Of a stretch of DNA of 64,000 bases, positions 17,635 to 23,081 are shown one piece after another. Location: NCBI GenBank assembly GCA_017549205.1, contig JAFYVH010000001.1, positions 1 through 64,000 of the forward strand, written 5' to 3'. Position 1 is the stretch's first letter. Every line of letters begins with the position of its first letter. Origin of the DNA: Clostridia bacterium (GTDB lineage Bacteria > Bacillota > Clostridia > UBA1381 > UBA9506). The notes beneath the pieces are model-generated. The model was not told where the DNA came from, made no database searches, and saw only the letters and a program-made list of their open reading frames with translations. Both the position numbers and the translations under genes were made by a program.

Positions 17635-18414
17635 TTACTGTCGTTCATAGTACCCTCGCTTTCTACTCCGTTTCGGAGCAGGCTTTTTATACATTTTGAC
17701 GGTCAAATAATAGCCGCCGTTAATTTCGTTGTAGTACGGCTTAACCTCTGCCAGGGAGTAACCCTCGTAGAGTCGCTCGAGCTCCTCGTGCATATCGTAG
17801 CCGCTGTCGTGAATTTCTTTGACTTTGTATTGCGGCAGCCTGCCGTCCCGTTCCGAGGTTTTAGGCTGCTCAAGGTTTCGACTTGCACACCAACGCTTGC
17901 CGAGTATAGGCTCCTTTATGAGATACTTTGCAATGCCGACTATGCCGTACTCGTCAAACTGTAAAGGCTTTGCTGTCGTATAGCCTCGGCTCCATATTTC
18001 CGCAAGGGTGTTTATATCTACGCCGCCACTCATAACGATATGGTGGTGCAGGCGTGCGCTTTTCTTTCCGATTTCGGTAACTGCGACATATTTTAAGTCG
18101 GGTAAACCGTTCTTTTTGCGGTACCGCTTGACTCTGCGGAGGAAATTTTGCATTTCTCTTTGTGCGTCCTCGGGAGAGCCTGGGTAGTTCTCGTCGTTGT
18201 ATGTAAGGTCAAACCTTATGTCCTTTTTTGTAAAATTCGTATTAAGCAAGCGTATTAACTTGCGCTCGGCGTTTCTTTGGTTAAGTCTTTTTTGAGTTTC
18301 CGAGGTCGGCTTACGCTTTTTGCTGCGTCCTCGCTGATATTCAAAAACGGGGAATATATCTACCTCCAAATACTCGCCGCAATAGTGTTTCTTTTCTCTG
18401 TATAGGCAACGCAT
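17635..18414 (-). CDS. HUH rolling-circle replication initiator-like protein
   Basis: 259 residues; CGGAGG 7 bases before the ATG at 18414. The three Rep motifs are visible: motif I FDLTY at 68-72, motif II HHH with the HxH pair at 123/125 (RLHHHIVMSGG), and motif III KYLIK at 163-167 with a single candidate catalytic Tyr164. The closest pattern I know is the microvirus-type/rolling-circle-replication-associated Rep (G2P/VP4-like), with a downstream region beginning EPILGKRWCASRN, probably the usual extension. HUH enzymes nick one strand through a Tyr-DNA link to start rolling-circle replication. It is the only replication-type protein in the visible phage. A palindrome lies 23-51 bases upstream of its start. 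Confidence 0.82.
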   Translation of the reverse strand: MRCLYREKKHYCGEYLEVDIFPVFEYQRGRSKKRKPTSETQKRLNQRNAERKLIRLLNTNFTKKDIRFDLTYNDENYPGSPEDAQREMQNFLRRVKRYRKKNGLPDLKYVAVTEIGKKSARLHHHIVMSGGVDINTLAEIWSRGYTTAKPLQFDEYGIVGIAKYLIKEPILGKRWCASRNLEQPKTSERDGRLPQYKVKEIHDSGYDMHEELERLYEGYSLAEVKPYYNEINGGYYLTVKMYKKPAPKRSRKRGYYERQ

Positions 18415-18436: not shown

Positions 18437-18465
18437 TTGGGGCTCTGCCCCAAACCCCGAGGTTT
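18437..18465. repeat. Double palindrome upstream of Rep gene (candidate nick/origin site)
   Basis: TTGGGGC-tct-GCCCCAA forms a perfect 7-bp stem with a 3-base loop (18,437-18,453); the adjoining AAACC-ccga-GGTTT (18,452-18,465) forms a second 5-bp stem. They lie 23-51 bases before the HUH gene, where many rolling-circle replicons carry their double-strand origin. No T-run follows on either strand, so it is not a standard terminator. Origin function is inference. Confidence 0.4.
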
Positions 18466-18644: not shown

Positions 18645-18726
18645 TTTTTGTCCCTCTCGGTTTTTGGTCGTTAAGTTATTATCCATTACGAGCCCAAAAT
18701 ACAAGAGGCTTTTTTCGCTCTTTCTA

Positions 18727-18755
18727 TTGACTTTTTGTTGCCTCTGTGCTATAAT
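18727..18755 (+). promoter_or_regulatory. Strong sigma-70-type promoter, rightward (opposite to phage genes)
   Basis: TTGACT (18,727-18,732), a 17-base spacer, and a perfect TATAAT (18,750-18,755). Transcription should begin near 18,762. It is the only strong plus-strand promoter I see inside the prophage and it drives nothing but the short transcript that ends at 18,828. Confidence 0.8.
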
Positions 18756-18761
18756 AATTAC

Positions 18762-18828
18762 AAGATGTTAAGCAACACAAAGGCGGTTGCTGCGGCTATC
18801 ACTCGGGCGGAGTGGTAGCCGCTTTTTT
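18762..18828 (+). ncRNA. Predicted ~65-nt small RNA with intrinsic terminator
   Basis: From the predicted start near 18,762 the transcript folds into two adjacent stem-loops: AGCAAC/GTTGCT (about 18,771-18,791, loop containing AAAGGCG), then a 13-bp stem 18,792-18,804 with 18,810-18,822 (one G-T pair, 5-base loop) followed by six T. The only frame is a leaderless 17-codon ATG frame that ends inside the terminator, so an RNA product is more likely. It points against the leftward genes, and its T-run touches the ASCH gene stop. Possible roles: control of Rep expression, a toxin-antitoxin-type RNA, or a priming RNA near an origin. None is shown by sequence alone. Confidence 0.6.
18792..18828 (+). 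terminator. Intrinsic terminator of the small RNA
   Basis: 13-bp GC-rich stem (GCGGCTATCACTC with GAGTGGTAGCCGC) plus TTTTTT on the plus strand. On the minus strand the stem is followed by CAGCAACC with no T-run, so it does not serve the leftward genes. Confidence 0.82.
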
Positions 18829-19280
18829 CATTTAATAAATTGCCAGGATTGAGGCGGGCGGGTTATGCCAAAGTCCGAAAGAGGGCGAGGCTTTGTAAAC
18901 CTCGTAGGATTGCTTACTACATAAGCGTAAACATCTTTGCCGCCTGCATACGCTACGAGCTGCTCCTCGGTAAGACAAGCTCTCTTTGCTATTTCTGCGC
19001 GAGCTGCTGCCTCCTCGGGTGTATTGCTCTTGTGTAGAGCCGCTCCGAAAGCGTCAGTTTTTATAATTACATTACAAGTATAAAAGCCTACTACAGCTCC
19101 CGCTCCAGGAAACAACACGCCTCCCGAGCCTTTATATAGGTGCTTTGTTTCATACATATATATAGTATAAGGAAACGCACCGCCGCTCGGGGCTGTTTTC
19201 CTCATTTCGTAGCCCTTGAGCTCTTTTAAGATGTTCTCGGCGTGTTCGTGGTGTATTGATTGCATTATTACGCTACTCAT
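18828..19280 (-). CDS. ASCH/PUA-like domain protein
   Basis: 150 residues. The N terminus MQSIHHEHAENILKELKGYEMRKTAP is the ASCH pattern (a helix that meets a Gly-x-Glu-x-Arg-Lys edge). Next come YTIYMYETK, a GAGAVVGFYTCNVI strand, and the C-terminal LSDFGITRPPQSWQFI typical of phage ASCH proteins. ASCH domains are thought to bind RNA or modified nucleotides. The start ATG overlaps the lytic transglycosylase stop, so they are co-translated. Specific role in the phage unknown. Confidence 0.75.
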   Translation of the reverse strand: MSSVIMQSIHHEHAENILKELKGYEMRKTAPSGGAFPYTIYMYETKHLYKGSGGVLFPGAGAVVGFYTCNVIIKTDAFGAALHKSNTPEEAAARAEIAKRACLTEEQLVAYAGGKDVYAYVVSNPTRFTKPRPLSDFGITRPPQSWQFIK

Positions 19281-20609: not shown

Positions 20610-21299
20610 TTACTTAAAGATTGAGGGATTGAATATACAAGCGGGGGCGACTCCGCTAGCATCGTTCGCGTAGTTGTAGCTCAACGCTCCCGAGGTATAC
20701 ACAATGCGCTCGGTGTCCGCGTACCCAGGGGCGCAGCTCCAGGGTGTAATAGTCCATACCCAGGTATCATATTTAGGCACTAAAGCTCTATACTTTCTGT
20801 AAAGGTCGTCCGAAAGCAAAGCGATAAAGTCCTCGGAGGTACCGTAGCTCTTGTCGCCGTTGTCCGCTGTCAAGTCGGATATAATCGGTATAAGGTCGTC
20901 CTTGTCAAAATTCTTTATGTATTCCTCGTTAAGGAATTTGCGGAGGGTAGAGCTGCGCCAATCATTGCAGCAGTTCTCGTCGTAAGGCATTTCGCGCTCG
21001 AGCCTCTTTGCCGCTACAGCAAGTACGCCGCCCTGCTTATAGCGCAGGGCTACAAACTCCATACCGTTATAATTAAAGTGCTCGCCCGCTGTCGGTATCT
21101 TGTCGCTTATAGGCTCGGGCTTGCCCTCTCCGTTTTCCTGGTCGTCCTCGTATTCGTCCTCATACTCCGCAGGGGTAAAAATGCCTGCAAAAGCGAGGGA
21201 AACAACCGCCTCGGCTCTTTTTTTGTTGTCCTCGGGGTTTGGGTTGGTCGCTATGTCGTCGCAAAGGGACTCTATAGCTGTTAAAATGCTGCTGTTCAT
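20610..21299 (-). CDS. DUF6273-like domain protein
   Basis: 229 residues. A helical N terminus (~1-45) and an acidic linker (EYEDEYEDDQENGEG, ~48-62) precede a C-terminal domain with the DUF6273 order: GEHFNYNGMEFVALRYKQ, NDWRSSTLRKFLNEEY, DFIALLSDDLYRKYRALVPKY, TITPWSCAPGYADTERIVYTSG, and GVAPACIFN at the end. This fold resembles the C-type-lectin/formylglycine-enzyme type used by some phages and bacteria for ligand binding. It is encoded in the early, not the structural, region. The C-terminal SYNYANDASGV stretch is rich in Asn/Tyr/Ser codons, as in variable regions of diversity-generating retroelements, but no reverse transcriptase is in the window. Confidence 0.75.
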   Translation of the reverse strand: MNSSILTAIESLCDDIATNPNPEDNKKRAEAVVSLAFAGIFTPAEYEDEYEDDQENGEGKPEPISDKIPTAGEHFNYNGMEFVALRYKQGGVLAVAAKRLEREMPYDENCCNDWRSSTLRKFLNEEYIKNFDKDDLIPIISDLTADNGDKSYGTSEDFIALLSDDLYRKYRALVPKYDTWVWTITPWSCAPGYADTERIVYTSGALSYNYANDASGVAPACIFNPSIFK

Positions 21300-22829: not shown

Positions 22830-23081
22830 TTATTGTGCCGCTACGGGCTTTCGGTGCCCTCGGCGTTTGATACTGTCTTGTACGGTCTTTTGTGCAATGT
22901 CTGCACTATAACCGCTGCGCCCGTTGTTGTCGAGCTCGCCCGTACTGCCTCTCGTCATTTCTCTATAAATGGTCGCAAGATGTACTCCGAGCTTGGAGGC
23001 AATTTCTACGAGGCTTGTATTTGCTGCATAAAGAGCCTCAATACTCTTTCTATCCTCAAATGTGAGGTATCGGCAAGTCAT
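22830..23081 (-). CDS. IS30-type helix-turn-helix protein (HTH_38)
   Basis: 83 residues. The N-terminal ~45 residues (YLTFEDRKSIEALYAANTSLVEIASKLGVHLATIYREMTRG) are the DNA-binding domain of IS30-family transposases, but there is no DDE catalytic region; the rest is a short basic tail ending RRGHRKPVAAQ. It is therefore not a transposase but a stand-alone DNA-binding protein, as found in other Firmicutes phages. It is the first gene of the leftward early operon. An AAAGGAG lies 10 bases before the ATG at 23081. It may control the early operon, whose upstream region carries the repeated intergenic element. Confidence 0.8.
   Translation of the reverse strand: MTCRYLTFEDRKSIEALYAANTSLVEIASKLGVHLATIYREMTRGSTGELDNNGRSGYSADIAQKTVQDSIKRRGHRKPVAAQ

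Follow-up and report, generated by a model that had tools for sequence, protein, structure and literature searches.

What does a small RNA do when it is encoded against all the genes of a prophage, just upstream of the gene for its rolling-circle initiator? Firmicutes of the gut and rumen commonly carry tailed phages with a G2P-type initiator (Rep), and neither the restraint of their replication in the lysogen nor the start of their second strand is described in the literature that we found. The window analyzed here, a stretch of 64,000 nucleotides from a Clostridia bacterium, contains one such prophage, in which an earlier note had pointed out a short transcription unit and proposed it as a controller of Rep, a toxin–antitoxin RNA, or a primer-type RNA of the replication region. 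Versions of the small RNA occupy the corresponding site in dozens of phages that are only distantly related, and from its sequence and these relatives we judge that it probably belongs to an overlooked kind of control over the start of DNA copying. Three observations go beyond the earlier note: a near-fixed link to a putative nick motif, an inverted repeat shared by promoter spacer and transcript, and the spread of the unit across the Rep family.

A predicted small RNA and its neighboring genes

The unit begins with a sigma-A type promoter on the plus strand, TTGACT-17-TATAAT (18727..18755), which matches the consensus at 11 of 12 positions and comprises the −35 element TTGACT (18727-18732), a 17-nt spacer with TG before the −10 (18733-18749), and the −10 element TATAAT (18750-18755). 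The predicted transcript of about 67 nt (18762..18828, plus strand) would start at A18762, a position derived from the family-wide enrichment of TA at 6-7 nt past the −10, which fits a purine start 7 nt after the −10. It contains stem-loop 1 (GCAAC/GUUGC, 18772..18790, plus strand), which is supported by covariation, and an intrinsic terminator (18792..18828, plus strand) with a 13-bp stem (18792-18804/18810-18822), the loop GGGCG, and T6 at 18823-18828. Within the 8 kb scanned (15-23 kb), no other promoter match and no other terminator scored as well as these two. The two tandem stem-loops have a folding energy of −32.4 kcal/mol (z −5.4), and none of 200 shuffles was equally stable. All the parts described in the earlier note were thereby recovered, including the strand opposite to all phage genes and the end of the RNA at the stop of the upstream gene, where the T-run overlaps the stop codon (18828-18830). 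Its statement that the RNA encodes no plausible protein requires a qualification, as a 17-codon ORF (ATG at 18765) does exist; this ORF has no Shine-Dalgarno sequence, its frame is lost in three relatives (L009, L013, and L015), and the small RNA was rejected as a peptide gene. The Rfam covariance-model search that the note had called for gave no match above the gathering score, and a nucleotide search of annotated phages gave no match. When a 151-nt query was compared with order-level genomes, the matches spanned the promoter only.

On one side of the unit lies rep (17635..18414, minus strand), encoding an HUH-type initiator (PF23343 REP_ORF2-G2P, PHROG 3584) that is the sole rolling-circle initiator in this genome. 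Its leader carries, a short distance ahead of the rep Shine-Dalgarno sequence, the hairpin GGGGTTTGGGGCAGAGCCCC (18439..18458, minus strand); this hairpin occurs in close relatives only, is identical in all of them but L009, and is present in a single copy in this genome. On the other side, outside the unit, is a gene co-directional with rep (18828..19280, minus strand). The label ASCH that the earlier note had attached to it found no Pfam support: the gene has no Pfam match and belongs to PHROG 3136, a family of unknown function.

Recurrence in relatives and across the Rep family

A search of IMG/VR yielded 13 contigs with Reps 58-91% identical to that of the window, and the same small RNA was found in 11 of them and in one Clostridia genome (L031). 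The unit recurs upstream of 85-91%-identical Reps regardless of the upstream gene, which may be a lysozyme-like gene, other phage genes, or the ASCH-labelled gene. Because the upstream gene differs while the small RNA stays, it is Rep, and not this gene, that the small RNA accompanies. A toxin–antitoxin RNA, or one linked to the ASCH-labelled gene, is therefore hardly credible. The gene does adjoin the small RNA in the window and in two relatives; however, it is replaced elsewhere while the RNA remains, no conserved toxin-like ORF is present, and a search for the small hydrophobic toxin mRNA that a type I system would place opposite the small RNA found no such conserved ORF. Such an element is largely refuted by the comparative data, and among the roles suggested earlier, the controller of Rep and the primer-type RNA survive.

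The check by conservation that had been proposed came out in favor of the unit: both hairpins are kept in relatives, and the unit stays with Rep and the origin when the upstream gene changes. In stem-loop 1, 100% of the cells in an alignment of eight sequences are paired, and two of the five pairs have changed on both sides (CG to UA and AU to GC), so that GCAAC/GUUGC in some close relatives stands against GUAGC/GCUAC in others. Close relatives show hardly any variation in the 31-nt terminator hairpin, as might be expected if the RNA acted in trans on targets elsewhere, with this hairpin and its GGGCG loop as the working part in the close family. We consider a trans-acting prophage small RNA of this kind very unlikely, given that distant members have a loop and stem of unrelated sequence, that the unit always lies at the Rep origin, and that a search of the rep leader revealed no target. 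Two relatives (L020 and L021, with Reps 71% and 58% identical) have lost the small-RNA unit; their origin motif is still there, accompanied by a hairpin of 14-16 bp that is almost perfect.

A Rep profile search extended the comparison to 80 viral loci with Reps 31-91% identical. In a non-redundant set of 66 regions upstream of G2P-type Reps, an antisense promoter matching at least 9 of 12 consensus positions and followed by a terminator was found in 32; on the sense strand, the figure was 1 of 66, and among 912 control windows of 700 nt it was 10. With the promoter cut-off raised to at least 10 of 12, the respective counts were 26/66, 0/66, and 1/912. A chance pairing of promoter and terminator is ruled out by this recurrence in relatives together with the control windows. 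In about half of the Rep loci, no unit could be recognized. Where it is present, the promoter (TTGACT or TTGACA, a 17-nt spacer, and TATAAT or TATACT) occupies the same position, and the predicted antisense RNA spans 55-80 nt, ending with its intrinsic terminator close to or at the point where the upstream gene has its stop codon. A terminator was present in every unit read, although terminator sequences are unrelated between groups. The unit is also present in the cultured, inducible Latilactobacillus phages TMW 1.1381 P1, 1.46 P2, and 1.1365 P1 (PMC10688831).

A predicted RNA antisense to the presumed rep leader

Upstream genes are co-directional with rep and mostly end at the 3' end of the small RNA. 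Automatic gene calls initially gave seven upstream genes in the opposite orientation; when ten such loci were read by hand, nine had a co-directional ORF ending at most 60 nt from the RNA end, and in the remaining locus (L182), the nearest such ORF ends 265 nt away. No sense promoter was detected in 30 loci, either in the stretch from nick to Rep or in the 400 nt upstream. Because the upstream genes are co-directional and no local rep promoter is detectable, the rep leader is presumably transcribed by read-through, and the rep mRNA would then carry the full complement of the small RNA. Across the family, promoter and terminator would give a 50-140 nt RNA antisense to this leader. The strong promoter and the universal terminator argue for a discrete RNA as the product. 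We tentatively favor, with slightly less than even confidence, the reading that the unit is a counter-transcribed RNA restraining Rep expression.

A near-fixed distance to the putative nick motif

Between the promoter and rep lies the putative origin. An imperfect hairpin (18690..18726, minus strand), the putative Rep-binding part of a double-strand origin, precedes the motif GGGCTCG followed by TAATGGATAATAACTTAACGACCA (18665..18695, minus strand), with the nick predicted between 18689 and 18688. Throughout the family, a conserved motif, CTTG with TAATGGGTATTA beyond the nick or a variant of it, follows a hairpin on the Rep strand. A search with the motif only, without reference to Rep, returned 72 viral contigs, of which 68 have a G2P-type Rep downstream in the same orientation and 40 have a promoter match starting 33-36 nt off on the other strand. 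Conservation and position suggest that the motif is the nick region of the double-strand origin.

The distance from the −35 to the nick motif is near-fixed at about 36 nt (33-39 nt in 31 of 39 units), whereas the rep start lies at a variable distance of about 50 to 560 nt beyond the motif. It is thus the origin, and not the start codon of rep, that fixes where the unit lies, which suggests a role at the DNA level and speaks against the antisense model. One such role would be an RNA-polymerase-primed single-strand (lagging-strand) origin, in which the displaced Rep-sense strand folds and an RNA made by the host RNA polymerase from the same site primes the complementary strand, away from the double-strand origin. 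We regard this as the main, if on balance doubtful, alternative. In addition to the near-fixed nick distance, it is favored by the position of the unit, which lies a short way ahead of the nick motif on the last-displaced strand, where single-strand origins are usually found (PMC4595007), and by the complementarity of the small RNA to that strand. Against it, a single-strand origin does not need a strong consensus double-strand promoter and a terminator in every unit.

A role at the DNA level could also lie in the act of transcription. The promoter abuts the putative Rep-binding hairpin, and in phage lambda, OOP RNA is needed together with ori for replication silencing (PMC3349717). Transcription from the origin-facing promoter, or RNA polymerase bound to it, might accordingly modulate the origin through Rep access or supercoiling, the RNA itself being secondary. 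This seems to us quite unlikely, because it leaves the covarying stem-loop 1 and a hairpin of the sense strand, described below, unexplained.

An inverted repeat that folds on the Rep-sense strand

The promoter spacer and the transcript form an inverted repeat (18739..18785, minus strand), with arm b in the spacer (18739-18752) and arm a in the transcript (18772-18785). On the minus, Rep-sense strand, the repeat forms a hairpin whose loop lies over the start site of the small RNA. Across the family, the spacer is complementary to the small RNA at about +8 to +33, with a mean z of −3.2; of 39 units, 92% score under −1.5. The hairpin is centered close to the start site (dyad at a median of −2), and 79% of dyads fall within 4 nt of the median, compared with 34% in the null.

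Which strand folds was read from the polarity of wobble pairs, with the repeat arms aligned under Watson-Crick scoring only and transition mismatches counted. On the Rep-sense strand, 25 mismatches are G.U and 4 are A.C (p = 1e-4), whereas the shuffled background leans the opposite way (966:1739). The terminators, serving as a control for polarity, have their wobbles on the RNA strand (32:7). RNA energies of the repeat hairpin likewise indicate that the sense strand is the more stable (Wilcoxon p = 0.009). The wobble polarity shows that it is the sense strand on which the spacer hairpin forms, be it the rep read-through mRNA or displaced single-stranded DNA. From the opposite polarities, the small RNA is the molecule in which the terminator, and in the close family stem-loop 1, folds, whereas the spacer hairpin belongs to the opposite strand. 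A protein-binding operator or a cruciform was ruled out as the reason for the inverted repeat, because a double-stranded element would give no strand bias such as the 25:4 ratio. We found no description in the literature of a promoter spacer serving as an arm of a hairpin on the other strand.

Both leading readings can make use of this hairpin. For the antisense model, it provides a structured sense target with its loop over the 5' end of the small RNA; however, the strength and wide retention of the hairpin are not required by that model and count against it. For the single-strand origin, with the nick placed as predicted, it is a hairpin on the displaced strand, of the right polarity and centered near the start site. 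The spacer lies within the duplex in nearly all members, and the −35 and −10 lie outside it in most, so that a double-stranded promoter would not be rebuilt in these, which weighs against priming; in some members (L062, L067, L142, and L192), the hairpin does include one of the two elements, −35 or −10. A certain excess of hairpins at the same place is also present in loci that have no promoter (mean z −1.4 vs 0.05), which again favors a single-strand origin.

Seven loci (L127, L136, L139, L141, L146, L150, and L163) have the origin motif, no consensus antisense promoter, and strong hairpins just upstream of the origin. These hairpins are perhaps other kinds of single-strand origin.

Possible modes of action

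Under the antisense model, rep would be expressed by read-through from the upstream operon. The 5' tail of the small RNA, mostly unpaired and its least paired part, would pair with the exposed loop of the sense hairpin, and the pairing would zip into a 60-70-bp duplex of small RNA and rep mRNA. This duplex might lower Rep production through cleavage, blocked read-through, or, in some members, a released terminator. A repressed prophage would thus be kept from firing its origin, and initiation in an induced one would be limited. The small-RNA promoter could itself be silenced by Rep when this is bound at the neighboring origin.

A general attenuator, with arm b pairing to a downstream arm followed by a U-run, was not evident (mean z −0.8, with 21% of 39 units), and attenuation of the pT181/pIP501 type is not supported as a general mode. 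An attenuator arm is possible in the window, which could form AGAGGC...GCCTCTTGTATTTT, and in the CCGCCG group. The target search against the rep leader proposed in the earlier note found no additional pairing of the small RNA with the leader or the ribosome-binding region (mean z −0.2, not beyond background). Pairing with the GGGCGGAG-like leader hairpin or with the rep ribosome-binding region is accordingly not supported. A translational block of the pMV158 type was also rejected, as the RNA lies upstream of the nick motif and shows no leader pairing beyond background. With no general attenuator and no pairing to the ribosome-binding region, cleavage of the duplex or blocked read-through remain as possible modes of restraint.

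It is also conceivable, albeit unlikely, that one palindrome at the start site serves two single strands, as a landing hairpin for the antisense RNA in the rep leader and as a hairpin in displaced DNA for priming by RNA polymerase. If so, a single promoter would both restrain Rep and provide lagging-strand priming, and a large group of Firmicutes tailed phages would possess a dual-use origin RNA.

Relation to known systems

By anatomy only, the small RNA may be likened in its working to the counter-transcribed RNAs of pMV158, pT181, and pSK41 and in its placing to lambda OOP. RNAII of pMV158/pLS1 is likewise a short counter-transcript of a rolling-circle rep mRNA with a structured complementary sense region, and it too has a single-stranded 5' tail followed by one hairpin with a U-run; its 17-nt tail is needed for binding (PMC4485353). 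The present RNA differs in being placed 50-560 nt from the rep start, further upstream than the origin hairpin and the nick motif, in leaving the ribosome-binding site uncovered, in having a promoter spacer that is part of the sense hairpin, and in its host, a tailed phage with a G2P-type Rep and no CopG. As in the attenuation systems of pT181 RNAI and pIP501 RNAIII, it is antisense to the rep leader, and the leader segment covered by the RNA pairs just beyond the RNA start (PMC5703833), whereas a possible downstream terminator arm is seen here only in some members, namely the window and the CCGCCG group. In favor of the antisense model, the small RNA agrees in size, and in its build of a tail plus a terminator, with pMV158 RNAII and with the counter-transcribed RNAs of pT181 and pSK41, which measure 83-87 nt (PMC5703833).

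Lambda OOP, a self-terminating RNA of 77 nt, reads away from ori and overlaps the end of the upstream gene (PMC3349717). The small RNA shares with it self-termination, a promoter beside the origin, a direction away from the replication module, and a 3' end where the upstream gene finishes. OOP belongs to a theta origin with O and P proteins, in contrast to the rolling-circle Rep here, and we do not suggest that the two RNAs are related in sequence. RNA-polymerase-dependent single-strand origins (ssoA, ssoU, the M13 minus origin, and Frpo) also have a displaced-strand hairpin upstream of the double-strand origin (PMC4595007, PMC5703833, PMC10085688) and a start site in or near the hairpin loop. 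Unlike these, the present unit has a strong double-strand consensus promoter, with elements mostly outside the duplex, and an intrinsic terminator. A literature search for rolling-circle phages with antisense or structured RNAs found none, and a wider look gave lambda OOP as the only close parallel.

A putative origin, nick motif, and antisense RNA gene are placed together in dozens of phages, including the inducible Latilactobacillus phages. This co-location at one site makes both replication restraint and second-strand start directly testable.

Two further observations concern neighboring proteins. DUF6273-like proteins, alike in their C-terminal regions, are encoded in the operon upstream of Rep in the window (20610-21299, minus strand) and in L111, L103, L144, L156, and L182; they occur in many unrelated phages of the G2P-type Rep group and could be hypervariable, retroelement-diversified proteins. 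At the prophage edge, an 83-aa HTH_38 protein with an IS30-like N-terminal region (22830-23081, minus strand) is also present in L031 (5589-5840). It adjoins different host genes, an RNase Y-like gene in L031 and a TypA/BipA-like GTPase gene in the window (23293, identified by eye), and because these host neighbors differ, the protein may mark or take part in integration.
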